Positions 48,259-61,707 of a stretch of DNA of 64,000 bases are shown in pieces. Under the pieces are notes generated by a model. It had not been told where the DNA came from, did not search any database, and worked only from the letters and a program-made list of their open reading frames with translations. Where the stretch lies: the NCBI GenBank assembly GCA_036504035.1, contig DASXVV010000014.1, positions 248,001 to 312,000 on the forward strand, given 5' to 3'. Both the position numbers and the translations under genes were made by a program. Each line of letters begins with the position of its first letter. Position 1 is the stretch's first letter. Source of the stretch: Candidatus Deferrimicrobiaceae bacterium. GTDB taxonomy: Bacteria; Desulfobacterota; Deferrimicrobia; Deferrimicrobiales; Deferrimicrobiaceae.

Positions 48259-48714
48259 TCAATAGTAGTCCTCGTGGCAGTCGGCGCAGAACGCGCTGAG
48301 ATCCACGTCGTTCCCGAAGAAGTTGACCTTCCGCACCATCTTGAAATCGGCGCCGACCGGCTTCAGATGGTAGTGGCACGTCGCGCAGGTGATCTTCCCC
48401 GCATACAACGGCAGCGTTTTCGGTCCATCGCACACCCGTTGGTTCCAGTTCCCGATTCCCGACGGATGGACAACCTGGCCGATGCCGAGCGCGCACGCCG
48501 TATCCGCATGGCACGTCTTGCATGTGGTGTCGATGGAATCCCGCAACAGCCGGAACTCCCCGAGCGCGATGTCGTCGGGAGAGGGGATGGCCACGTGGCA
48601 GTACGGGCAGAGGTCCATCGAGATGTGTGGATTGACGGGAGCGGATTCGACCGGGTTGGCAAGCGAGAGGCAGGCAAACAGGACCACGAGGGCGAAGCCG
48701 GGGTGGCGATACAT
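48259..48714 (-). CDS. periplasmic tetraheme c-type cytochrome (paralog 3)
   Basis: The 151-residue exported protein has a signal peptide (FALVVLFACLSLANPVESA) and four CxxCH heme sites: CPYCH, CKTCH, CATCH and CADCH. It shares a layout with the two upstream genes: mature N-terminus with NPHI before heme 1, GPKTLPL and then GKITCATCHYH before heme 3, KMVR, and the final FCADCH near the C-terminus. It should carry electrons in the periplasm, perhaps in respiration of extracellular or soluble acceptors. AAGGGG precedes its start. No recognised named family; close to single-gene tetraheme proteins of metal-respiring bacteria by layout only. Confidence 0.85.
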   Translation of the reverse strand: MYRHPGFALVVLFACLSLANPVESAPVNPHISMDLCPYCHVAIPSPDDIALGEFRLLRDSIDTTCKTCHADTACALGIGQVVHPSGIGNWNQRVCDGPKTLPLYAGKITCATCHYHLKPVGADFKMVRKVNFFGNDVDLSAFCADCHEDYY

Positions 48715-48785
48715 CTCGTTCCCCTTTCTGCCGGCAGGATGGGTGTCGGCCGCAGAAGGGTTGGTGAGAGTACGCCGGGTATTAC

Positions 48786-48820
48786 GTCTCTGGATACAGT
48801 ATACACCTCATGTCAGAGAC
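48786..48820 (-). promoter_or_regulatory. inverted repeat around a -10-like box upstream of a cytochrome gene
   Basis: GTCTCTG (48786-48792) and CAGAGAC (48814-48820) form a 7-bp inverted repeat spaced by 21 bases. On the minus strand a TATACT (48798-48803) lies between them, 84 bases before the cytochrome start. It could be an operator around a promoter, or a 3' hairpin of the gene at 48829. Confidence 0.35.
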
Positions 48821-48828
48821 AGGGGGAT

Positions 48829-49287
48829 TCAGCGGCCCGGGTGGCAGTCGGCGCAGAATTTCGTGAAATCGGGCCCCCCGTCGATGATCGCGACGTTGCG
48901 GACCATCTTGTAGTCGCCCCCTTCGGGCTTCATCCGGTAATGGCAGGTGGTGCAGGTGATCCGGCCGTCATTCAGCGGCAGGGTTTTGGGGCCTTGGCAG
49001 TTCCAGGTTTCCGCATCGGACAGGTGCTCGACCCGATTCGGGCCGAGGGCGCACACGACCTGCCGGTGGCAGCAGCGGCACGTCTCGTCGACCGTATCCC
49101 TGGTCAGACGGAAAACGCCGCACGCCGCGTCGTCGGTCACGGGAATCACGGTATGGCAGGAGAGGCAGCTCTCGCGGTCGGTCGAGGTGTGCGGGTTGCA
49201 GGTGACGGGCGCCGCCCAAACCTTGAAGGGAACGGCTGCGAGGAGGAGCGACGAAAGCAGACGCAGGGCGAGAGATCGGCAACGCAT
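48829..49287 (-). CDS. periplasmic tetraheme c-type cytochrome (paralog 2)
   Basis: A 152-residue exported protein with a signal peptide (ALRLLSSLLLAAVPFKVWA) and four heme motifs: CLSCH, CRCCH, CTTCH, CADCH. The NPHT segment before heme 1, GPKTLPL before heme 3, YKMVRN and FCADCH are shared with both neighbours, so the three genes arose by tandem duplication. An extra Cys (VTCNPH) and CNC-like Cys residues near the middle (ETWNCQG) distinguish it. It lies 114 bases upstream of paralog 3. Confidence 0.85.
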   Translation of the reverse strand: MRCRSLALRLLSSLLLAAVPFKVWAAPVTCNPHTSTDRESCLSCHTVIPVTDDAACGVFRLTRDTVDETCRCCHRQVVCALGPNRVEHLSDAETWNCQGPKTLPLNDGRITCTTCHYRMKPEGGDYKMVRNVAIIDGGPDFTKFCADCHPGR

Positions 49288-49413
49288 CGGATTCCCCTTT
49301 CCGTCGTCACGGGTTCGTGCCGGCTGTCGAAAGGTTGGCTTGGAGCAGGCAGAATCGACCGGTTCTCCATCATTGAATACTCCCCCGTCCTCGCCAAGGT
49401 TACCGCATGACGC

Positions 49414-49878
49414 TCACTTGTCGTCGTGGCAGTCCCGGCAAAGAGGGGACCACTCGATCTTCTCACCATCCCGGTGGACGATCCGAACCATCTTGTAGGA
49501 AGGCCCGTCGGGGATCGAATGAAAATGGCAGGTGTTGCAGGTGATGAACCCGTTCTGCAGCGGCAACGTTTTCGGCGACCGGAACCTCGTCTTGTCCCAG
49601 TGGTCGAATCCGCTCGGGTGGTTGAATGTGTGCAGGGCATTCATGTCGCAGCACACCTTGGGGTGGCACATGTGGCAGGTATCGTCGATCGTGTCCTTGA
49701 GCAGGTTAAGGTTGCCGGCCGCCCCTTCCTCCTTGGTCGGGACCTTCGAGTGGCAGCTTTCGCAACGCCCGGGCTTGATGTGGGGATTGATGACGGTCCC
49801 GGCCGCCCGAACGGGAGGGACGACGGGAAGCAGCAGGATGGACAGTGCGGCGAGCACAGGCAGACACCTTTGCGTCAT
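49414..49878 (-). CDS. periplasmic tetraheme c-type cytochrome (paralog 1)
   Basis: First gene of the cytochrome set, 154 residues from ATG 49876-49878, chosen because GGAGGG lies just upstream; a 15-residue longer frame lacks one. It has a signal peptide (LPVLAALSILLLPVVPPVRA) and four hemes (CESCH, CHMCH, CNTCH, CRDCH). NPHI, SPKTLPL, ITCNTCHFH and YKMVR follow the shared plan. It is the most divergent copy (CRDCH instead of CADCH and a longer, charged linker before heme 4). Co-expression with the other two is likely but gaps of 126 and 114 bases leave room for separate promoters. Confidence 0.85.
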   Translation of the reverse strand: MTQRCLPVLAALSILLLPVVPPVRAAGTVINPHIKPGRCESCHSKVPTKEEGAAGNLNLLKDTIDDTCHMCHPKVCCDMNALHTFNHPSGFDHWDKTRFRSPKTLPLQNGFITCNTCHFHSIPDGPSYKMVRIVHRDGEKIEWSPLCRDCHDDK

Positions 49879-49988
49879 GAGACCCTCCGAAAACCGAATT
49901 GGCTCACGTCGTTGCGGCGACAATTAGATAGCGATCGGGGGCATCGGGTTGCCGGTTCCGGATAAAAAAGTGTTCAAATCATCGGTAA

Positions 49989-51139: not shown

Positions 51140-52093
51140 ATGAGCCAGATTTACAGCGACAACTCGCAATCGATCGGGAACACCCCGCTGGTGAAGCTGA
51201 ACCATGTGACCGATGGGGCGAAGGCGACCGTGCTCGTCAAGGTTGAAGGGCGCAACCCGGCCTACTCGGTCAAGGACCGGATCGGGCAGAACCTGATCGC
51301 GGACGCCGAGAAGCGGGGCGTCCTCAAGCCCGGCGTCGAGATCGTAGAGCCGACCAGCGGCAACACCGGCATCGCGCTGGCCTACGTCGCCGCGGCGCGC
51401 GGCTACAAGCTCACGCTGACGATGCCCGAGACGATGAGCATCGAGCGACGGCGGATTCTTGCGGCGCTGGGCGCCAAGCTGGTACTGACGCCGGGAGTCG
51501 AAGGGATGAAGGGCGCGATCAGCAAGGCCGAGGAGATCGCGGCCTCCGAGCCGGGCCGCTGGTTCCTGCCGCAGCAGTTCAAGAATCCCGCGAATCCCGA
51601 GATCCACGAGAAGACGACGGGCCCCGAGATCTGGAACGATACCAACGGGGGCGTCGACGTGATCGTCTCCGGCGTCGGGACCGGCGGCACGATCACAGGC
51701 GTCTCGCGTTACATCAAGAAGACGAAGGGCAAGGCAATCATCTCTGTGGCCGTCGAGCCGAAGGAGAGCCCGGTCATCACGCAGAAGCTGGCCGGAGAGC
51801 CGCTGAAGCCGGGACCCCACAAGATCCAGGGGATCGGCGCAGGCTTCATCCCGGACACGCTCGACCTGACGCTTGTGGACCGTGTCGAGCTGGTGGGCAG
51901 CGACGAGGCGATCGAGACCGCGAAGCGGCTGAGCAGGGAGGAAGGGCTGCTGGTCGGCATCTCGTCTGGAGCGGCCGCCGCGGTTGCCGTCCGGCTCGCG
52001 AAGCTGCCGGAGTTCGCGGGCAAGACCATCGTCGCGATCCTTCCGGATCTGGCCGAGCGCTACCTGTCGACGGCGCTGTTCGAAGGGATCTAG
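51140..52093 (+). CDS. cysK: cysteine synthase (O-acetylserine sulfhydrylase)
   Basis: PLP enzyme that joins O-acetylserine and sulfide to cysteine. The 317 residues start at ATG 51140 with AAGGAGA 8 bases upstream; a longer frame from 51083 has no ribosome site. The PLP lysine is K45 in [11 protein letters not shown], with [28 protein letters not shown], the phosphate loop [10 protein letters not shown] and the CysK ending [12 protein letters not shown]. It opens a close-packed run of sulfur-related genes extending to 61707. Its upstream region is rich in repeats and may respond to sulfur supply. Confidence 0.94.
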
Positions 52094-52105: not shown

Positions 52106-53542
52106 ATGATCAACGGCAAACAATACCTTGAGAGCCTCCGGCGGCTTCGTCCCAATATTTACAAGTGGGGAAAGCCACTGGCAGATGTGACGACGCATCC
52201 CGCGACGCGCCTCCATGTCGCCGCCATCGCGGCCTGCTACGACGCGGCGTTCGATCCGGAAAGCGCGCCGCTGTTCACCTCCGATTCGCATCTCACGAAC
52301 AAGCCGGCACACCGCTGGAATACGCTCGTACGTTCCGCGGAGGACGTGGCCGCCAATGCCCGGATGAAGCGGGAACAGTTCCGTCGGACAGGCGCTTGCC
52401 ACGGGGCGACGTGCGCCGGGTGGACGGCACTCAACGCGCTGTGGGCCGTGACGCACGAGGTTGATGCCGAGCACGGGACCGGATACCACGCGCGACTTGA
52501 AAAATACTTTCGCCATATCGAGGAAAACGGCCTGGCCACCGCCGGCGCGCTGACCGACGCGAAGGGCGACCGGTCGCTTCCGCCGTCCGGCCAGGCGGAT
52601 CCCGACCGCTACCTGCACGTGAAGGATGTTCGGGAGGACGGCATCGTCGTCCGGGGCGTCAAGGCGCAGATCTGCGGCGTCGCCGCGGCGCACGAGATCG
52701 TCTGCGTCCCCGGGGGCGCGCTGTCGGAATCGGAGGTCGACTTCGCCGTCGCTTTTGCGATCCCCCGCGACGTTGCGGGACTCACCGTGGTCGAGACGCG
52801 TCGGCCGAGCGACACGCGGGACGAGGAGGAAGGCTGGGATGCCCCCAAGACGGGCGGCATCTCCCAGGCGTTCCTCCTGTTCGACGACGTCTTCGTCCCG
52901 AATGACCGGATCTTCCTCCGGGGCGAGACGCCGTTCGCGGCGCGCTTCGTCCATCTTTTTACGGCCCTCTACCGGGCTCCGATAGGAGCGTGCGTGGCCG
53001 GGCAGGGCGACGTGATGATCGGGGCCGCCACCGAGCTGGGCAAGGCGGGGGGGCTCTCGCGCAAGGTGTTCCAGGACAAGTTGACGAAAATGGCGATCAA
53101 CAACGAGACCACTTTCGCGGTCGGCATGGGAGCCGCGATGCTTGGCACCCGGCACCCTTCCGGCGTCTGGATTCCCGATCCGCTGCTTTCGCATGTCAAC
53201 AAGGTGCTGGTGGCGACGCTTCCTTATGAAACCAAGCGATTGGCGCAGGAGATCGGCGGGGGCATCGCCGAGACGGGATGTTTCCCTTCGTACAAGGACC
53301 TGAACTCGCCCGAGTACGGCAAGTCGTTGCTGGACGCGATGTCGGCGGCCGAAAGCGGGGAAGTGCGGGCCCGCTTGGCGCGACTGGTCGAATGGCTGAC
53401 CGTCGGGGGCGGGATTCCCGGATGCCTGCACGGGGGCGGCTCTCCCGACGGGGCGCGTCTGATGGTTCGCGCCCTCGAGCCGTGGGACGCGCTGGGCGTG
53501 CGAGCCCGGCATATCGCCGGATTGGAAGGAGAGGTCCGATGA
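52106..53542 (+). CDS. 4-hydroxybutyryl-CoA dehydratase/HpaB-fold flavoprotein with altered active site
   Basis: The 478-residue protein belongs to the acyl-CoA-dehydrogenase-like HpaB/4-hydroxybutyryl-CoA dehydratase family: GALTDAKGDRS, DGIVVRGVKAQI, AAAHEIVCVPGGAL and VDFAVAFAIPRD follow the dehydratase pattern. The Clostridium dehydratase binds a [4Fe-4S] cluster with C99, C103, H292 and C299. Here I see C98, C103 and C296, but Tyr289 in place of the His, Ile293 for the catalytic Tyr and Val297 for the catalytic Lys. A different flavin reaction is therefore likely. It is 12 bases after cysK and overlaps a CoA-ligase gene, so its substrate may be a CoA thioester of a sulfur compound (inference). 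Confidence 0.75.
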   Translation: MINGKQYLESLRRLRPNIYKWGKPLADVTTHPATRLHVAAIAACYDAAFDPESAPLFTSDSHLTNKPAHRWNTLVRSAEDVAANARMKREQFRRTGACHGATCAGWTALNALWAVTHEVDAEHGTGYHARLEKYFRHIEENGLATAGALTDAKGDRSLPPSGQADPDRYLHVKDVREDGIVVRGVKAQICGVAAAHEIVCVPGGALSESEVDFAVAFAIPRDVAGLTVVETRRPSDTRDEEEGWDAPKTGGISQAFLLFDDVFVPNDRIFLRGETPFAARFVHLFTALYRAPIGACVAGQGDVMIGAATELGKAGGLSRKVFQDKLTKMAINNETTFAVGMGAAMLGTRHPSGVWIPDPLLSHVNKVLVATLPYETKRLAQEIGGGIAETGCFPSYKDLNSPEYGKSLLDAMSAAESGEVRARLARLVEWLTVGGGIPGCLHGGGSPDGARLMVRALEPWDALGVRARHIAGLEGEVR

Positions 53543-54891
53543 CGACGCGCACGACAACGGCAGCGGACACGGCAGACAGCCTCACGGAACGGGAATATTG
53601 GGACGAAGCGCTGGAGACCTTGCCCCGGCATGATCTCGATGCGCTCCAGCTGCGGCTCCTGAAGGAGCATCTCGACTTCGCCGGCCGGAATTCCCCTTAT
53701 TACAGGGCATCGTTCCGGGATTCGGGCCTGGCGGCATCCGATCTCCGGTCGCTGTCCGACCTGCGCGCATTTCCCTTCATCAAGAAGTCGATCCTGCGAG
53801 ATCGGCAGACCGCCGCCCCGTTGCTGGGAGATCTGGCGGCCGTGCCGGAAACCGAGGTCGTCTATGTCTCGGCTTCGAGCGGTTCCACCGGCGTGCCGAC
53901 TCTGTCTCCCTTCACCGCCGAGGATTTCGACGGATGGCAGGACGTCGAGGCGCGCCTTTTCTACGCGGCAGGCATGCGCGAGACCGACCGCTACCTGCAC
54001 GCGCTGAATTTCTCGATGTTCGTCGGCGGGCCCGACGTGATCGGGGCGCAGCGGCTGGGCGCCTTGACGATCTGGGGCGGTACCCTCCCGGCCGACAGGC
54101 TTCTGTTCCTGGCGAAGTCCTTCGGCGCCACGGTCACCTGGACGACGCCTTCCTACGCATGGCATCTGGGGGAGACGGCGAAAGCGCAGGGACTCGACCC
54201 CGCGCGCGATCTCGCGATCCGGAAGATCATCGTGGCGGGCGAGCCGGGCGGATCGATCCCGGCGACACGACAGGCGATCGAGCGGTTATGGGACGCCGAG
54301 CTGTACGACTTCTACGGCATCTCCGACATCTTCGGAGCCTCGGCCGGGATGTGCCGGGAGCGGGAAGGGCTGCACCTCTCGGAAGACCATCATCTCCTTG
54401 AGGTGCTCGATCCTGCAACCGGGGAGCCGGTGCTGGATGGGGAGAAGGGCGAGATGGTGCTGACGACGCTCAAGAAAAAAGCGCGCCCGATGATCCGTTT
54501 CAGGACCGGGGACATCGTCACAGCCGACCGGTCGCCATGCGCCTGCGGGCGGACGCACGTGCGGATCAAGGTGCTGGGGCGGACCGACGACATGTTCATC
54601 GTCAACGGCGTGAATCTTTTTCCGTCGGACGTGGAAATCGCGGTCCGGGAGATTCCCGAGTCGACGGGCGAATACCGGATCACGCTGACGCGGGAAAACC
54701 GACTGACGCGGTTCGGGCTGGAGATCGAGCGGAGGAACGGGGCGTCCGTCTCGGAAACCGCCCTGGCGGATGGCGTGCGGACGATCCTGCGGAATCGACA
54801 CGGGGTCGCTCCCCATTCGGTGACGATCCACGAAGACGGGACGCTTCCGAGGGCGGTGCACAAGGCGAAACGGGTCGTGGACAACCGATAA
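53539..54891 (+). CDS. PaaK-like AMP-forming acyl-CoA ligase
   Basis: A 450-residue adenylate-forming enzyme of the phenylacetate-CoA ligase group. The opening (LLKEHLDFAGRNSPYYRASF) and the P-loop SASSGSTGVPT are typical, with YDFYGISDIFG, MIRFRTGDIV, a zinc-type CACGR segment, LGRTDDMFIVNGVNLFPSDVE, and a C-terminal Lys in AVHKAKRVV. It would activate an acid as AMP then CoA thioester. ATG 53539 overlaps the preceding stop (ATGA) with AAGGAGAGG upstream, so it is made together with the dehydratase-like enzyme. The acid is unknown; an imported organosulfur acid is my inference from the context. Confidence 0.85.
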   Translation: MTTRTTTAADTADSLTEREYWDEALETLPRHDLDALQLRLLKEHLDFAGRNSPYYRASFRDSGLAASDLRSLSDLRAFPFIKKSILRDRQTAAPLLGDLAAVPETEVVYVSASSGSTGVPTLSPFTAEDFDGWQDVEARLFYAAGMRETDRYLHALNFSMFVGGPDVIGAQRLGALTIWGGTLPADRLLFLAKSFGATVTWTTPSYAWHLGETAKAQGLDPARDLAIRKIIVAGEPGGSIPATRQAIERLWDAELYDFYGISDIFGASAGMCREREGLHLSEDHHLLEVLDPATGEPVLDGEKGEMVLTTLKKKARPMIRFRTGDIVTADRSPCACGRTHVRIKVLGRTDDMFIVNGVNLFPSDVEIAVREIPESTGEYRITLTRENRLTRFGLEIERRNGASVSETALADGVRTILRNRHGVAPHSVTIHEDGTLPRAVHKAKRVVDNR

Positions 54892-54960: not shown

Positions 54961-56004
54961 ATGGAGATGGGTCATACAGGAAAAAAGAAAAGGGTACTGC
55001 GACGCTTATTGACCGTGGCTGCACTGACGGCGTTCTCGGCCGCGGCGTTCGCGGGCGAGGCGATCAAGGTCGGTTATCTGCCGGTGACCGGGCACGCGAA
55101 GTTCTTCGTCGCGAAGGAAAAGGGCTTCTTCGCGAAAGAGGGGATCGACGCCGAACTGCTGGAGTTCGCGAATTCGGCGGACGGCCTTTCGGCGCTGCGG
55201 GCCGACAAGATCGACATCGGCGCGTTCGGGACGACGGCGCCGCTAGCGCATATCGACAAGGGCGCCGACATCCGGATCATCGGCGGGATCATGGGCGAGG
55301 ATGCGGCCATCGTCACGACCGCGGCAAACGCCGGAAAGGTGAAGCGGATCGCCGACCTGAAGGGAAAGAAAGTGGCGACCGTCCGCCTGGCGACAGGTGA
55401 CGCGGTCCTTCGGGGCGCGCTGAAGGATGCCGGCATCGATTGGAAGAAGGACCTGCAGATCTTCGAGCTGAAGAACCCGCCGGCGGTGATCGAGTCGGTC
55501 AAGTCGGGCCAGGTGGATGCGGGCGTCGTCTGGGGACCGTTCGACCTGAAAGCCGAGGAGCAGGGGCTGAAGGTCGTGATCCGGAGCGACAAGCTCCAAC
55601 CGGGACACCCGTGCTGCAGGATCGTGGTCCGGGAAGGGAAGCTCAGGAACACGGCGACGCTGGAGCGGTTCGTCCGTGCCATCCTCCGGGCCGAGAAATA
55701 CGCGAAGGAGAACCACAAGGAAACCATCGACGCGATCGTTAAATACGTGAAGCTCGACCGCGCGCTGATCGAGAAGGCGTACTACCAGGGGCACCTCGAC
55801 CAGAGCAGCGACCCGAACGTCAAGGGGGTCAAGCATTTCTGGGGGACGATGCAGCACTCGGAGATGGTCGCCTCGAAGGCCGACATCGGCCAATACATCA
55901 ACACGGCAATCTACAAGGCGGCGCTGGACGGGCTGATCCGGGAGAGCCCGAAAGATGCCTACTGGCAGAAGCTGAAGAAACAGTTTGCGGAGCGGGACGC
56001 GTGA
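54961..56004 (+). CDS. NitT/TauT/SsuA-type ABC transporter substrate-binding protein
   Basis: Periplasmic binding protein of 347 residues for a small organic acid, most often an aliphatic sulfonate, taurine, nitrate or thiamine precursor. A twin-basic leader and signal peptide (RRLLTVAALTAFSAAAFAG) precede the NMT1/SsuA-like domain: IKVGYLPVTGHAKFFVAKEK, GIDAELLEFANSADGL, VATVRLATGDAVLRGAL, VKSGQVDAGVVWGPFD. GAAAGGGGGA precedes ATG 54961. The genes for ATPase and permease follow with 4-base overlap and 2-base gap. The surrounding sulfur genes favour an organosulfur ligand. Confidence 0.88.
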   Translation: MEMGHTGKKKRVLRRLLTVAALTAFSAAAFAGEAIKVGYLPVTGHAKFFVAKEKGFFAKEGIDAELLEFANSADGLSALRADKIDIGAFGTTAPLAHIDKGADIRIIGGIMGEDAAIVTTAANAGKVKRIADLKGKKVATVRLATGDAVLRGALKDAGIDWKKDLQIFELKNPPAVIESVKSGQVDAGVVWGPFDLKAEEQGLKVVIRSDKLQPGHPCCRIVVREGKLRNTATLERFVRAILRAEKYAKENHKETIDAIVKYVKLDRALIEKAYYQGHLDQSSDPNVKGVKHFWGTMQHSEMVASKADIGQYINTAIYKAALDGLIRESPKDAYWQKLKKQFAERDA

Positions 56005-56840
56005 TGCCTGCATCCGCCGGGAATGCCGCGGGTCTCGAGGCCCGCGGCATCTCCCACGCCTTCCGCGGAAATATCGTCCTGCGCGGGATCGATCTTTCGA
56101 TCCCGGAGGGGCAGCTGGTGGCGCTCCTGGGGCCGAGCGGGTCCGGCAAGACCACGCTGCTCCGCCTGCTGGCGGGACTCGAGCGGCCGACGGAGGGCCG
56201 GGTCTCATGGAAGGGGCGCGAGATCGGGGAGCCCGGAATCGAGCGCGGCGTCGTCTTCCAGGACTATTCGCTCTTCCCATGGATGAAGGTGTCCGACAAT
56301 CTCGTCCTGGCGATCCGGAAGGCGTTTCCCGGGAAGCCCCGTGCGGAACAGCTTGCGCTGGCGGAGGACTACCTGGAGATGGTGGGGCTTTCGGGATCGG
56401 CGTCGAAATACCCGTACCAGCTTTCCGGCGGGATGCAGCAACGGGGCGCCATCGCCCGCGCGCTCGCGATCGGATCCCCGGTGCTGTTGATGGACGAGCC
56501 GTTCGGGGCGCTCGATCCGCTCAACCGGATCCGGCTCCAGGACCTGCTGGCGGAAGTGCGGGAGGCGGCGCAGCCCCGGAAGACGATCCTCTTCGTGACG
56601 CACGATGTGGACGAGGCCATCTTTCTCGGCGACCGGGTCGTCGTGCTGGGCGCTTCCCCCGGCCGGGTGATCGCGGATCTCCCTGTTTCGCATCATCGCG
56701 GCGTCTCCCCGCGGGACCGGCGGGCGGCGATCGGCGAGTTCCGCTCGCTTCGGGAACAAATATCGGACTTGTACCGGGAAGACGTGCTGAACCGGCTCGA
56801 GGAACCCACGATGGTGGCAGGTTCGGCGGAGGGGATCTGA
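56001..56840 (+). CDS. ABC transporter ATPase (SsuB/TauB/NitD type)
   Basis: The 279-residue ATPase powers the importer of the flanking genes. Walker A LGPSGSGKTTLL, Q-loop VFQDYSLFPWMKV, signature LSGGMQQRGAIARAL, Walker B VLLMDEPFGALD and switch His VTHDVDEAI are intact. It starts at GTG 56001, which overlaps the binding-protein stop (GTGA); ATG 56004 is a possible start. The FPWM segment after the Q-loop is characteristic of the nitrate/sulfonate/taurine transporter group. Confidence 0.92.
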   Translation: MMPASAGNAAGLEARGISHAFRGNIVLRGIDLSIPEGQLVALLGPSGSGKTTLLRLLAGLERPTEGRVSWKGREIGEPGIERGVVFQDYSLFPWMKVSDNLVLAIRKAFPGKPRAEQLALAEDYLEMVGLSGSASKYPYQLSGGMQQRGAIARALAIGSPVLLMDEPFGALDPLNRIRLQDLLAEVREAAQPRKTILFVTHDVDEAIFLGDRVVVLGASPGRVIADLPVSHHRGVSPRDRRAAIGEFRSLREQISDLYREDVLNRLEEPTMVAGSAEGI

Positions 56841-56842
56841 AG

Positions 56843-57613
56843 ATGGATAGGAACATCGTGAAGTTCCCGTGGGAACCGGCGCTCCTCTTCATCGCGATCC
56901 TGGCCGCCTGGCAGCTGGTCACGACGCTGACCCCGGTCGGGGCCAACCCGCTCTATCCGACGCCGGTCAAGACGCTCGAAGCGCTTCGGGCGTCGCTTCC
57001 CGAATTGTGGAAGGGAACGGTCTCTTCGTTCCTCATCCTCGTTCCCGGATATCTCCTCGCCGTCGCCGCCGGAATCTTTTCCGGGCTGATCGTCGGCGAG
57101 TCCGCCCGGATGCGGAAAACCTTCTTCCCGTTCGCCCGCGTGGTCGCACCGGTCCCGCCCACGGTGTATGTGGCTTACGCGATCGCGATCCTGCCTACGT
57201 TCCGGTTGTCCGCCATGTTCGTGATCTTCCTGGGGGCGTTCTGGCCGGTCTTCCTCAATACCGCGGCGGGAGTCCATTCCATCGATGTCCGATACCGGGA
57301 CAACGCTCGAATCCTCGGCTTATCCCGTCGGGAATACCTGCTGCGGGTCGCGTTTCCGGCGGCGCTGCCCCACATCTTTTCCGGGATGGCCGTCGGGCTT
57401 GCGCTTTCTTTCATCATGCTGACGGTCGCCGAGCTGTTCGGGGCGAACGCGGGTTTGGGACGGTTCGTCCAGTATTACGCCGATTTCGCGGACTACCCGA
57501 AGATGGCGGCCGGGATCCTGTACACGGGTTGCGTGACCTGGGCCTCGATGGCGCTCCTCGAATCGATCCGGAAGCGGGCGCTTTTCTGGCTCCTCCGGGA
57601 AGACCGGTCGTGA
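56843..57613 (+). CDS. ABC transporter permease (SsuC/TauC type)
   Basis: Inner-membrane permease of 256 residues with six predicted segments. ATG 56843 lies 2 bases after the ATPase stop with GGAGGGG upstream. The N-terminus (WEPALLFIAILAAWQL) and the EAA-type coupling loop near residues 155-185 (VHSIDVRYRDNARILGLS, FPAALPHIF) are as in SsuC/TauC. It completes the importer that feeds the sulfur island. Confidence 0.92.
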   Translation: MDRNIVKFPWEPALLFIAILAAWQLVTTLTPVGANPLYPTPVKTLEALRASLPELWKGTVSSFLILVPGYLLAVAAGIFSGLIVGESARMRKTFFPFARVVAPVPPTVYVAYAIAILPTFRLSAMFVIFLGAFWPVFLNTAAGVHSIDVRYRDNARILGLSRREYLLRVAFPAALPHIFSGMAVGLALSFIMLTVAELFGANAGLGRFVQYYADFADYPKMAAGILYTGCVTWASMALLESIRKRALFWLLREDRS

Positions 57614-58037: not shown

Positions 58038-58211
58038 ATGGTCCCCGCGGCGGAAAGCGTCCGTCGATACAGCCGGTTCTTCAAGAAACGGAACGTGTCC
58101 CGCGTCCTCGACTACGGGACCGGGAAGATGCGGAACGCGGTCTATCTTTCCAACGAGGGATTCCGGAGCCACTCGGTCGCTGCGATTTATCAGAAAGAAA
58201 CCGCGTCATGA
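58038..58211 (+). CDS. truncated SAM-methyltransferase-like ORF coupled to metY
   Basis: ATG 58038, with GGAGGAGG 5 bases before it, opens 57 codons that look like the N-terminus of a class I methyltransferase up to motif I (SRVLDYGTGKMRNAVYLSNEGF). Full enzymes have about 200 or more residues. Here the frame ends after YQKETAS, with its stop overlapping the metY ATG (ATGA). Either a methyltransferase gene lost its last three quarters, or the remnant has been kept as a leader that couples ribosomes to metY. A SAM-binding role cannot be expected from motif I alone. Confidence 0.5.
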   Translation: MVPAAESVRRYSRFFKKRNVSRVLDYGTGKMRNAVYLSNEGFRSHSVAAIYQKETAS

Positions 58212-59470
58212 CGAATCCGATTCGTTTCGATACCCTCCTGGTGCACGGCGGGCTGGAGCCCGGGCCCTCGGGCGCAACGGCGTTGCCGATCGTCCAGTCG
58301 TCCGCCTTCGCCTACGAGACCGCCGAATCGCTCGAGGATGTGTTCCGCGGACGGCGTCCGGGGCAGGTTTATACGCGAATCGGCAATCCGACGACCGAAG
58401 GCCTCGAGCGGCGGCTGGCGCTGCTCGAAGGGGGCGGGGCCGCCGTCGTTACCGCCTCCGGCATGGCCGCGATCACCGAGACCGTCCTGACGATCGTCCG
58501 GGCCGGCGACGAGATCCTGTCCTCCTCCTCGCTGTTCGGCGGCACCTTCTCCCTGTTTCGCGACACACTGTCGAACTACGGGATCACGACGCGGTTCGTC
58601 GACCCGGTCGACCTCGATGCGGTCCGGGCCGGCGTCAACGAACGAACCCGGCTGCTCTTCGTCGAGACGATCGGGAATCCCAAGCTCGACGTGCCGGACG
58701 TGCCGGCCCTTGCGGCGATCGCCCGGGAGGCGGGAATCCCGCTCGTGGTCGATGCGACCGTCAGCACCCCCGCGCTGGCGACGGGCGCGCAGCTTGGCGC
58801 GGACCTGGTCATCCACTCGATCAGCAAATACATCGGCGGGACCGGCAACAGCATCGGCGGCGCGGTCATCGACCGTGGGACGTTCGACTGGGGCAACGGA
58901 AAATTTCCCCACTTTGACCTCTACCGGAAACGCTATCGTCCCTATGTCTTCACCGCGCGGCTGCGCAAGCTGATCCACAAGGATGTCGGCGGCTGCATCG
59001 CGCCGATGAACGCCTTCCTGTTCTCGGAAGGGGTGCAGACGCTGTCCTTGCGGATGGCGCGCCATTGCGACAACGCGCTGGCGCTCGCCCTGTTTCTCGC
59101 CGCCCACCCAAAGGTCGCGTGGGTCAACTATCCCGGACTCAAATCGTCGCCGCATCACGCCACGGCGGGAAGACTGTACGGCGGCCGCTACGGCGGCCTG
59201 CTCACCTTCGGAACCGGCGACAAGCCTTCCGCCTTCCGCGTGATCGACGGCTTGAAGATTGCGAAGAACCTCGCGAACATCGGCGACACGAAGACGCTCG
59301 TCATCCATCCGGCGAGCACCATCTGCGTCGACTTCGGACCGGAAGAGCGGGCGCTGATGGGCGTACCGGACGACCTGGTCCGCGTCTCGGCCGGCATCGA
59401 GGACATCCGGGACCTGATCGACGATTTCGGCCGGGCGCTCGATTCGGCCTTCAAAGGAGAGAACGCATGA
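58208..59470 (+). CDS. metY: O-acetylhomoserine sulfhydrylase-type PLP enzyme
   Basis: Cys/Met-metabolism PLP enzyme of 420 residues that makes homocysteine from an activated homoserine and a sulfur donor. The start of the protein (FDTLLVHGGLEPGPSGATALPIVQSSAF), YTRIGNPTTEGLE, and PLP lysine in HSISKYIGG with GNSIGGAVID are typical of MetY. ATG 58208 overlaps the truncated methyltransferase frame. Downstream are a ThiS-like carrier, its activator and a JAMM peptidase. In Wolinella succinogenes the same gene set lets MetY take sulfur from the carrier's thiocarboxylate rather than from free sulfide, and I infer the same here. Confidence 0.9.
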   Translation: MTNPIRFDTLLVHGGLEPGPSGATALPIVQSSAFAYETAESLEDVFRGRRPGQVYTRIGNPTTEGLERRLALLEGGGAAVVTASGMAAITETVLTIVRAGDEILSSSSLFGGTFSLFRDTLSNYGITTRFVDPVDLDAVRAGVNERTRLLFVETIGNPKLDVPDVPALAAIAREAGIPLVVDATVSTPALATGAQLGADLVIHSISKYIGGTGNSIGGAVIDRGTFDWGNGKFPHFDLYRKRYRPYVFTARLRKLIHKDVGGCIAPMNAFLFSEGVQTLSLRMARHCDNALALALFLAAHPKVAWVNYPGLKSSPHHATAGRLYGGRYGGLLTFGTGDKPSAFRVIDGLKIAKNLANIGDTKTLVIHPASTICVDFGPEERALMGVPDDLVRVSAGIEDIRDLIDDFGRALDSAFKGENA

Positions 59471-59679
59471 AGATCACCGTGAACGGAAAAGAAACCCCGC
59501 TGCCGGAGAATCCCGGCCGCACCATCGAATCGCTGCTCGAGGAGTTGGACGTTTCGCAGCGGCTCTACGTGACGGTGGAGCTGAACGGCGACATCCTGGC
59601 GCGCGAAGCGTTTCCTTCGACGCCGGTGGACGACGGCGACGCCATCGAGTTCCTCTACTTCATGGGCGGGGGACGATGA
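59467..59679 (+). CDS. hcyS: ThiS-like sulfur carrier protein with blocked C-terminus (HcyS-like)
   Basis: A 70-residue beta-grasp sulfur carrier (MKITVNGKETPLPEN, GDAIEFLYFMGGG). A working carrier must end in Gly-Gly to be adenylated and thiocarboxylated. This one ends GGG-Arg, so one residue has to be removed. Wolinella HcyS ends similarly with one extra residue and the JAMM peptidase HcyD removes it; the peptidase gene is present at 60492. ATG overlaps the metY stop, and its own stop overlaps the activator gene. Role in homocysteine synthesis is strongly suggested by order. Confidence 0.82.
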   Translation: MKITVNGKETPLPENPGRTIESLLEELDVSQRLYVTVELNGDILAREAFPSTPVDDGDAIEFLYFMGGGR

Positions 59680-60491
59680 TGCTGACGGATGCCCAGATCG
59701 AACGCTACTCGCGCCACATCATCCTCAAGCAGGTGGGCGGGAAAGGGCAGCAGAAGCTGCTCGACGGCCGCGTACTCATCATCGGGGCGGGCGGGCTCGG
59801 GGCGCCGGCCGCGCTCTACCTGGCCGCCGCAGGCGTCGGAACGATCGGCATCGCCGACGCGGATGTGGTCGACGTGACCAACCTCCAGCGGCAAGTGATC
59901 CACTTCACTCCGGACGTCGGAAAGCCCAAGGTCGAATCGGCCGCCGAAAAGATGCGCGCCATCAATCCCGACGTCACGGTGAAGACGTACCACGAATGGG
60001 TTACGGCCGCGAACATCGCCGGGATCCTGGCCGACTACGACTTCGTGATCGACGGCACCGACAACTTCACGGCAAAGTTCCTCGTCAACGACGCCTGCGT
60101 GCTTGCGGGCAAGCCATATTCCCACGCGGGCATCCTCCAGTTCGAAGGGCAGGCGCTCACGGTGCTGCCGGGGAAATCGACCTGCTTCCGCTGCATTTTC
60201 CCCGAGCCGCCCCCTAAGGATGCGATTCCCACCTGCTCACAGGCCGGCGTGCTCGGCGTTCTCCCGGGCGTGGTCGGATCGATCCAGGCGACCGAGGCGA
60301 TCAAGTATCTTCTCGGCAAGGGCGAGCTTCTCGCTGGAAGGCTGCTGACGTACAACGCGCTTTCGATGCGTTTCCGCGAGGTGCCCATCGACCGCAACCC
60401 CAACTGCCCGATTTGCGGCGAGCAGCCGACGATCACGGCGCTACGCGACGAGGTCGACGCGATGACCGTGTGCGACCTGGGAGGCCGCTGA
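59676..60491 (+). CDS. hcyF: MoeB/ThiF-like sulfur carrier adenylyltransferase (HcyF-like)
   Basis: E1-like enzyme of 271 residues that adenylates the C-terminal Gly of the carrier at 59467. It has RYSRHIILKQVGGKGQQKLL, nucleotide loop LIIGAGGLGAPAALYL, DVVDVTNLQRQ, DGTDNF, two CxxC zinc pairs (CFRC and CPIC) and the Cys of IPTCSQAGVLGV. There is no rhodanese domain, so sulfur must come from elsewhere; the LarE-like protein, a persulfide, or sulfide are candidates. It starts at ATG 59676 overlapping the carrier stop. Confidence 0.88.
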   Translation: MMLTDAQIERYSRHIILKQVGGKGQQKLLDGRVLIIGAGGLGAPAALYLAAAGVGTIGIADADVVDVTNLQRQVIHFTPDVGKPKVESAAEKMRAINPDVTVKTYHEWVTAANIAGILADYDFVIDGTDNFTAKFLVNDACVLAGKPYSHAGILQFEGQALTVLPGKSTCFRCIFPEPPPKDAIPTCSQAGVLGVLPGVVGSIQATEAIKYLLGKGELLAGRLLTYNALSMRFREVPIDRNPNCPICGEQPTITALRDEVDAMTVCDLGGR

Positions 60492-60884
60492 ATGCTCCGG
60501 ATCCCGGCCGACATCCTGGACGCCATCATCGCCCATGCGCAGGAGGGATTCCCGCACGAGGTGTGCGGCATCCTGGGCGGGAGCGAAGGGGACGTTTCGA
60601 CGATCCACCGGATGACCAACACCGACGCGAGCGCCGAGCATTTCTCGATGGACCCGAGGGAGCAGTTCGCCGTCGTCAAGGCGCTGCGGGCCGAGGGGAT
60701 CACGATGCAGGCGATCTATCACTCGCACCCGGAAACGCCCGCGCGACCTTCGGAGGAAGACATCCAGCTGGCGCTGACGCCCGGCGTTTGGCACGTCATC
60801 GTGTCGCTAACAGACCCGCAAGCCCCCGTCGTCCGGGCGTTCCGGATCGCGGAGGGAAAAGTCACCGCCGAGGAAATCGGGTAA
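60492..60884 (+). CDS. hcyD: JAMM/Mov34 (M67) metallopeptidase (HcyD-like)
   Basis: A 130-residue zinc isopeptidase of the Mec/JAMM type. The catalytic Glu is in FPHEVCGIL, and the zinc motif HxHx7SxxD is complete in HSHPETPARPSEED. Mec in Mycobacterium releases cysteine from CysO; HcyD in Wolinella trims the last residue of HcyS. The blocked GGG-Arg terminus of the neighbouring carrier makes the trimming role likely; release of a homocysteine adduct is an alternative that does not exclude it. It begins right after the hcyF stop. Confidence 0.87.
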   Translation: MLRIPADILDAIIAHAQEGFPHEVCGILGGSEGDVSTIHRMTNTDASAEHFSMDPREQFAVVKALRAEGITMQAIYHSHPETPARPSEEDIQLALTPGVWHVIVSLTDPQAPVVRAFRIAEGKVTAEEIG

Positions 60885-60894
60885 GGAGGCGTCG

Positions 60895-61707
60895 ATGGAA
60901 AGCATGACGGAAGCGCAGGCGCGCAAGCACGAGGCGCTGAAGGATATTTTGCGGGAGATCGATTCCTGCGTGATCGCCTATTCGGGCGGGGTCGACTCCA
61001 CGCTGCTGTTCGCCGTGGCCGCGTCGGTGCTGGGCGACCGGGCGCTCGCGGTCACGGCGCTATCCGAAACCTATCCGGCGAGCGAGCTGGCGGCGGCCCG
61101 CCAGGTTGCGGCGTCGCTGGGCGGCCGTTTCCGCGAAGTCGACTCCGAGGAGCTCGACATCCCCGGCTTCCGCGAGAATCCGCGCGACCGCTGCTACTTC
61201 TGCAAGAAAGAGCTGTTCGGCAAGCTGCGCGAGATCGCCGACGCGGAAGGGCTGCGACACGTGCTCGACGGGAACAACGTCGACGACCGGGGCGACCACC
61301 GGCCCGGGCGGCGCGCGGCGGCCGAGCAGGATGTCCGAAGCCCGCTCGAGGAAGCCGGATTCACGAAAGCCGACATCCGGGCGCTGTCGCATGCGCTGGG
61401 ATTGCCGACCTGGGACAAGCCGGCCTATGCCTGCCTCTCCAGCCGGTTCCCCTACGGCACCGAGATCACGCGCGACCGGGTGCGGCAGGTGGGGCAGGCC
61501 GAGGAAGCCCTTCGGGCGCTCGGTTTCCGCACGCTGCGCGTTCGCTACCACGGAACCGTGGCGCGCGTCGAGCTGGGCCCCGAGGAGTTCGGGCGGGCGG
61601 TCGGACCGCTCCGCGCCGACGTCGTCCGGATCGTCAAGGCCGCCGGCTTCGTCTACGTGTCGCTCGACCTGGAAGGGTTCCGTTCGGGCGCCATGAACGA
61701 GGCCTGA
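60895..61707 (+). CDS. LarE-like ATP-dependent sulfur transferase (PP-loop)
   Basis: A 270-residue PP-loop protein. SGGVDS (30-35) is the pyrophosphatase loop, and YACLSSRFPYG places Cys180 at the site of the sacrificial-sulfur Cys176 of L. plantarum LarE. A second pair of cysteines, C100 and C103 in RCYFCKKELF, fits LarE forms that bind a [4Fe-4S] cluster. LarE normally builds the nickel-pincer cofactor of lactate racemase with LarB and LarC, but neither is present here. At the end of a thiocarboxylate operon it may instead supply sulfur to the carrier. That function is inference. Confidence 0.83.
   Translation: MESMTEAQARKHEALKDILREIDSCVIAYSGGVDSTLLFAVAASVLGDRALAVTALSETYPASELAAARQVAASLGGRFREVDSEELDIPGFRENPRDRCYFCKKELFGKLREIADAEGLRHVLDGNNVDDRGDHRPGRRAAAEQDVRSPLEEAGFTKADIRALSHALGLPTWDKPAYACLSSRFPYGTEITRDRVRQVGQAEEALRALGFRTLRVRYHGTVARVELGPEEFGRAVGPLRADVVRIVKAAGFVYVSLDLEGFRSGAMNEA

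Follow-up and report, generated by a model that had tools for sequence, protein, structure and literature searches.

Genes at the locus

The stretch of DNA that was analysed (64,000 nucleotides, termed here the window) contains an intact gene for a relative of 4-hydroxybutyryl-CoA dehydratase (4HBD), an enzyme of textbook radical chemistry in which a flavin is joined to an iron-sulfur cluster. The protein, termed the variant, matched the Pfam domains HpaB_N (2.6e-73) and HpaB (1e-33). Its best solved relative in phmmer searches was the 4HBD AbfD (1u8v; E value of 3.6e-89), which aligned end to end and whose numbering is used for reference residues; the enzyme of N. maritimus (6vjr), also among the nearest solved relatives, was again aligned over its full length by phmmer. 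An AF2 model of the variant (pLDDT of 76 and pTM of 0.80, with low confidence in the C-terminal part) had 1u8v as its top PDB fold match, with a TM score of 0.77. Of the features that define a 4HBD, full-length homology and the HpaB/4HBD fold were both present. The gene and its neighbours are as follows.

51140 to 52093, + strand: cysK, cysteine synthase A (TIGR01139, 460.8 bits against a cut-off of 350.95), ending 12 bp before the variant gene starts
52106 to 53542, + strand: variant gene, an intact open reading frame of 478 amino acids with a 4HBD-like predicted flavin/Fe-S fold and the motifs CxxxxC ... YRxxIGxCV
53539 to 54891, + strand: PaaK-like AMP-forming CoA ligase, the start of which overlaps the variant stop (ATGA)
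54961 to 56004, + strand: SsuA-family periplasmic binding protein (TIGR01728, 151 bits against a cut-off of 163.5; 63% identity to the Anaeromyxobacter neighbour)
56001 to 56840, + strand: ABC ATPase of the SsuB/TauB/NtrD type (59% to the Anaeromyxobacter neighbour)
56834 to 57613, + strand: ABC permease of the SsuC/NtrB type (63% to the Anaeromyxobacter neighbour)
58208 to 59470, + strand: metY-like O-acetylhomoserine sulfhydrylase (TIGR01326, 454.8 bits against a cut-off of 495)

The metY gene is followed by ThiS-, ThiF-, JAMM- and LarE-like genes, a run (58208 to 61707) which we take to resemble the protein-thiocarboxylate route to homocysteine. Solved relatives of the PaaK-like ligase include phenylacetate-CoA ligase and 2-hydroxyisobutyryl-CoA synthetase, the latter indicating that ligases of this type need not use aromatic acids. 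Two PAPS-reductase-family genes are present in the window's own genome; hence, organosulfur would be a supplement and not necessarily the only sulfur source. On the − strand, at 48259 to 49923, three small proteins are encoded in tandem; they contain several CxxC/CxxCH motifs, are multihaem cytochrome-like and are apparently related to one another.

Residue pattern and clade of the variant

An earlier note on this DNA had claimed, from alignment by eye, that the variant keeps cysteines at 98, 103 and 296, that Tyr289, Ile293 and Val297 occupy the His, Tyr and Lys positions of 4HBD, and that the first Cys spacing is one longer. These positions were examined in pairwise phmmer alignments and, independently, in a MAFFT alignment of 60 homologues comprising 33 full-length members of the clade described below and 27 others. 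Every one of these assignments was upheld, and the relevant codons are located as follows.

52397 to 52414, + strand: Cys98 to Cys103, the first two putative cluster ligands, with Gly100 between them (33/33)
52865 to 52867, + strand: Gln254, the equivalent of Glu257 in AbfD (Gln in 33/33)
52970 to 52996, + strand: Tyr289, Ile293, Cys296 and Val297, the equivalents of His292, Tyr296, Cys299 and Lys300 (invariant in 33/33)
53192 to 53194, + strand: His363, a candidate replacement ligand or base, presumed to lie near the cluster
53276 to 53281, + strand: Gly391-Cys392, a clade-specific insertion (33/33)

The cluster cysteines C99, C103 and C299 of AbfD correspond to C98, C103 and C296 by both phmmer and MAFFT and were kept in all 33 clade members. 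Insertion of Gly100 between the first two of these gives a C-x4-C spacing throughout the clade, whereas C-x3-C was found in 27/27 of the other homologues. H292 is replaced by Tyr289 and K300 by Val297 in 33/33 clade members, while the His was retained in all 27 of the others and the Lys in 26 of them; Y296 to Ile293 and E257 to Gln254 are likewise fixed in the clade (33/33 each). No alternative His or Lys of the variant was found at the H292 and K300 columns of the 60-homologue alignment, and thus the careful alignment called for by the earlier note restored neither residue. The losses extend beyond those it had listed to the E257, T190 (now C190), Q101 (now A101) and E455 positions, the last being a gap or Gly by alignment. 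Among the gains, His363 is the sole His invariant across the 33 sequences, lies 74 residues from the Tyr289 site and is an Asn in 25/27 other homologues, and the two-residue Gly391-Cys392 insertion has an invariant Cys (33/33) where all 27 others have a gap. Altogether, 140 positions were invariant or near-invariant among the 33 clade sequences. A residue pattern identical in every full-length member is not a sequencing quirk, and the clade-specific His363, Gly391-Cys392 and Gly100 point to re-engineering rather than decay.

Compared with AbfD and the N. maritimus enzyme, the variant is alike in full-length homology, fold, the three cluster cysteines and a partner implying a CoA ester, but differs in the absence of His292, Tyr296, Lys300, Glu257 and Glu455, in the extra residue between the first Cys pair and in the new invariant Tyr289, His363 and Cys392. 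With those five residues missing, canonical radical dehydration is judged from the sequence to be very unlikely, in support of the same claim in the earlier note; the different FAD reaction which that note had called probable is taken here as a putative one. The description of the protein as lacking the cluster His and the catalytic Tyr and Lys holds for the residues themselves but may overstate the loss: as three cysteines are invariant and His363 and Cys392 have been gained, a rewired cluster appears at least as likely as a lost one. An iron-sulfur cluster may still be held by the three cysteines, its fourth site being either new or open.

In a maximum-likelihood tree, the variant fell in a 35-row clade with 100/100 support, the stem of which was 1.19 changes per column long. 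Sampling covered the window's relatives, 395 genomes of the window's phylum and a scan with one genome per species. Close relatives (52 to 78% identity) were found in the window's phylum, Myxococcota (Anaeromyxobacter), Bacillota (Pelosinus, Selenomonadales and Syntrophomonadaceae), Thermodesulfobacteriota (Syntrophaceae) and Pseudomonadota (Telmatospirillum). Occurrence was patchy, with carriers making up 17/395 phylum genomes, 2/76 genomes in the family of G121 (a genome with a close relative of the variant) at a stricter cut-off, and 1/24 and 1/10 genomes in two further families. No close relative above ∼37% identity was found on plasmids, and no description of the variant subfamily was found in the literature searched. 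On these alignments and this tree, the variant belongs to a distinct, cross-phylum subfamily among the 4HBD-like members of the HpaB fold. The Metallosphaera gene Msed_1220 is presumed here to lack active-site residues. It is a second archaeal 4HBD gene, for which activity was not determined and no upregulation was seen (PMC7078158). It may resemble the variant as a second 4HBD-type gene besides the active one.

A second 4HBD variant group was also observed, in which the His and Lys are kept but Cys replaces Tyr296, Tyr replaces Gln101 and Thr replaces Glu257. Its members lie at L018 1483-2961, L028 1492-2949, L030 1441-2883, L019 1486-2928, L047 6327-7763 and L074 10973-12406; in genomes G044 and G240, this group adjoins the gene of the clade studied here.

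Gene neighbourhoods and a leader RNA

A CoA-activating partner was located near the variant in at least 17 loci, being a PaaK-like ligase in at least 11 and a CoA-transferase in at least 6 others, and EtfAB and/or a short-chain acyl-CoA dehydrogenase was nearby in at least about 16; these are minimum figures, as the loci mapped by sequence similarity differed in length. Either type of activating partner implies a CoA ester substrate. The check proposed in the earlier note, for a separate clade with fixed neighbours, thus came out positive in both respects. The dehydrogenase neighbour matched AcrC best in NCBIfam but matched 5ol2, its best solved acyl-CoA dehydrogenase, and also a butyryl-CoA dehydrogenase to about the same degree; hence, acryloyl-CoA reductase was dropped as a specific partner and only a short-chain enzyme is claimed. 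Resemblance to both AcrC and butyryl-CoA dehydrogenase makes a C3-C4 acyl-CoA the probable product that these enzymes handle. In the locus stretches examined, no dehydrogenase or EtfAB was found near the variant in the window subclade, Pelosinus or Telmatospirillum. Liv-type transporters lie beside some clade members.

Sulfur genes, which the earlier note had overlooked, were detected near the variant in four loci of the window subclade. These are cysK, SsuABC and metY in the window; a row in G121 (76% identity) of metY, MetQNI, variant, ligase, a 3-mercaptopyruvate-sulfurtransferase-like gene (sseA), Ssu-type genes and cysK; a row in G457 (78%) of MetQNI, variant, ligase, a CO dehydrogenase gene, SsuACB and an sseA rhodanese like that of G121; and SsuABC, ligase, variant and metY in Anaeromyxobacter (69%). 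In Pelosinus and Telmatospirillum, ligase, variant and MetQ occur together. Local sulfur-assimilation genes, as expected of an organosulfur module, were thus present in several lineages; as G121 and G457 belong to one family, the sulfur context comes from about three independent lineages, with two MetQ cases in addition. Most members of the wider clade had no nearby sulfur genes. Upstream in G457 are an MTA/SAH-nucleosidase-like gene and NifHDK-like genes with methylthioalkane reductase (9FMG) as the nearest solved relative, the H subunit scoring 385 bits to 9FMG against 288 for the next entry and the D subunit 165 bits (shared with 9d9u) against 89. A similar set is present in the window's own genome (G000), ∼34 kb downstream of the variant. 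The two sets are located as follows.

L082 1655-5277 (relative's locus): NifHDK-like, methylthioalkane-reductase-like genes
L089 8578-12155 (window's own genome): NifHDK-like, methylthioalkane-reductase-like genes

Reading of upstream regions revealed a leader element consisting of a small hairpin, CCRG-AAAMA-CYGG, followed by a T-run terminator of the form GGCC...GGCC. It precedes metY, metQNI-variant-ligase and sseA in G121, metQNI-variant-ligase and sseA in G457, the ligase-variant pair directly in Pelosinus (L031 8538-8603) and metK in the window's genome (L089 5229-5284). Two loci contained the following copies.

L066 4771-4849, 6237-6316 and 11815-11890: leader copies
L082 1563-1627, 7768-7839 and 18167-18239: leader copies

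A covariance model matched 113/271 genomes of the class of G121 at an E value of ≤0.001, the weaker matches of which may include chance terminators. Eight of the 11 pairs change on both sides among 42 distinct copies in a model-fitted alignment, a value reached in 0/500 shuffles, and three pairs do so among the seven founding copies aligned without the model. Genes downstream of strong matches, named by eye, include rhodanese, metK, metY, SsuA-like binding protein, radical-SAM-like and NifH-like genes. There were no Rfam matches in the operon region, the related loci searched or the leader copies tested; a known riboswitch before the operon was, therefore, rejected. A palindrome of the ATAG type, noted before cysK, metY and paaK, was discarded as too loose. 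The covariance-model search did not find a leader next to the window's own operon. These data are consistent with an unregistered, covariation-supported leader RNA, a candidate sulfur-responsive riboswitch or attenuator, which appears to group the ligase-variant pair with sulfur genes.

Possible function of the variant

The clade, residue pattern, gene order, partners and co-occurring sulfur genes observed above led us to propose, tentatively and as something short of probable, that in the window subclade the variant is an anaerobic CoA-dependent C-S lyase freeing sulfide or methanethiol from an organosulfur acid; the nature of the substrate as a CoA thioester, the sulfur that leaves, the state of the cluster, the flavin and the direction of reaction are what this proposal predicts. 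The subfamily as a whole would act on a CoA thioester and expel a leaving group with none of the acid/base residues of 4HBD. A small organosulfur acid, for which 3-methylthio- or 3-mercaptopropionate is a guess, would be imported via SsuABC or MetQNI and converted to its CoA thioester by the PaaK-like ligase. Alpha-deprotonation by the variant, followed by elimination, would then break the C-S bond, with the substrate sulfur perhaps bound by a three-Cys [4Fe-4S] cluster at an iron that is open or re-ligated or, alternatively, with His363 or Cys392 as a new cluster ligand, and CysK and MetY would capture the released sulfide or methanethiol. To expel hydroxide, 4HBD depends on acid/base assistance and on a cluster acting as a Lewis acid, and thiolate is a better leaving group than hydroxide; on general chemistry, the need for Lys300, Tyr296 and His292 would, therefore, relax and a His-free iron could bind sulfur. 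In subclades with a Bcd/AcrC-type dehydrogenase and EtfAB, reduction of the resulting short-chain enoyl-CoA would feed carbon or energy metabolism. Beyond the window subclade, this chemistry may be part of carbon metabolism, or the group expelled may be free of sulfur. The wider claim, of a new class of O2-independent acyl-CoA C-S lyases on a 4HBD scaffold, with a dedicated CoA ligase, serving sulfur scavenging in anaerobes, in which removal of the His ligand lets the three-Cys cluster hold the substrate sulfur (or be ligated by His363/Cys392), is on balance unlikely. Counting against the sulfur model, SsuA/MetQ-family binding proteins are not strictly sulfur-specific, a simple elimination could cleave a beta-thioether CoA ester without the fold of the variant, no sulfur genes were seen near most of the wider clade, and no leader was found next to the window operon.

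The main rival to the C-S lyase is an enzyme with a sulfur-free leaving group, acting on a short-chain acyl-CoA by another elimination, an isomerisation or a dehydrogenation, the sulfur genes being a coincidence of a crowded sulfur island. We consider this a possible explanation, if a somewhat improbable one: most of the wider clade adjoins CoA-transferase, acyl-CoA dehydrogenase and EtfAB without sulfur genes, and Liv-type transporters accompany some members, whereas separate families and another phylum repeatedly carry sulfur genes around the pair, with differing transporters, and the pair is grouped with such genes by the leader RNA. The loss of five or six residues of known importance in 4HBD would suit a catalytically dead structural or regulatory relative, which is, however, improbable given the conservation of the 33 sequences, inclusive of the new invariant Tyr, His and Cys, and the conserved enzyme partner in the operon.

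An HpaB-type flavin oxygenase, supplied with reduced flavin by a separate reductase, would share the fold, Pfam domains and profile matches of the variant. This reading is hardly likely and was rejected, as scores were far below the HpaB-1 and HpaB-2 equivalog cut-offs (119 versus 480 and 73 versus 885 bits); in addition, 4HBDs are the nearest solved relatives, the cluster cysteines, unlike in two-component HpaB monooxygenases, are kept and invariant, none of the annotated neighbours in the window was recognised as a flavin reductase, and several hosts belong to anaerobic groups. Whole-length similarity to AbfD might suggest an ordinary 4HBD misread through misalignment, but three separate alignments gave the same result, and the set of residues, fixed in 33 sequences, occurs in none of the 27 others; this reading was also rejected, and its probability is negligible.

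For the favoured C-S lyase there are partial precedents. 3-Sulfinopropionyl-CoA desulfinase, an acyl-CoA dehydrogenase relative, is a flavin acyl-CoA enzyme that has lost its catalytic base and cleaves a C-S bond, and by analogy it may serve as a precedent for base-less cleavage by the variant, from which it differs in belonging to a different subfamily and having no iron-sulfur cluster. The methylthioalkane reductase MarBHDK cuts C-S bonds anaerobically to supply sulfur and is linked to methionine salvage (PMC12552129). The proposed pathway would be alike in anaerobic C-S cleavage, and MAR-like genes share the G457 island with the variant; however, MarBHDK is an unrelated enzyme using nitrogenase-type reduction, whereas the variant would use CoA activation.

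The CoA ligase partner makes the question of function directly testable. As a natural, fixed variant that keeps the cluster cysteines without the ligand and acid/base residues, this subfamily would show what each part of the 4HBD machinery is needed for. Should the sulfur reading be true, it would also add a CoA-dependent route to the few known anaerobic C-S cuts made for sulfur, besides methylthioalkane reductase.
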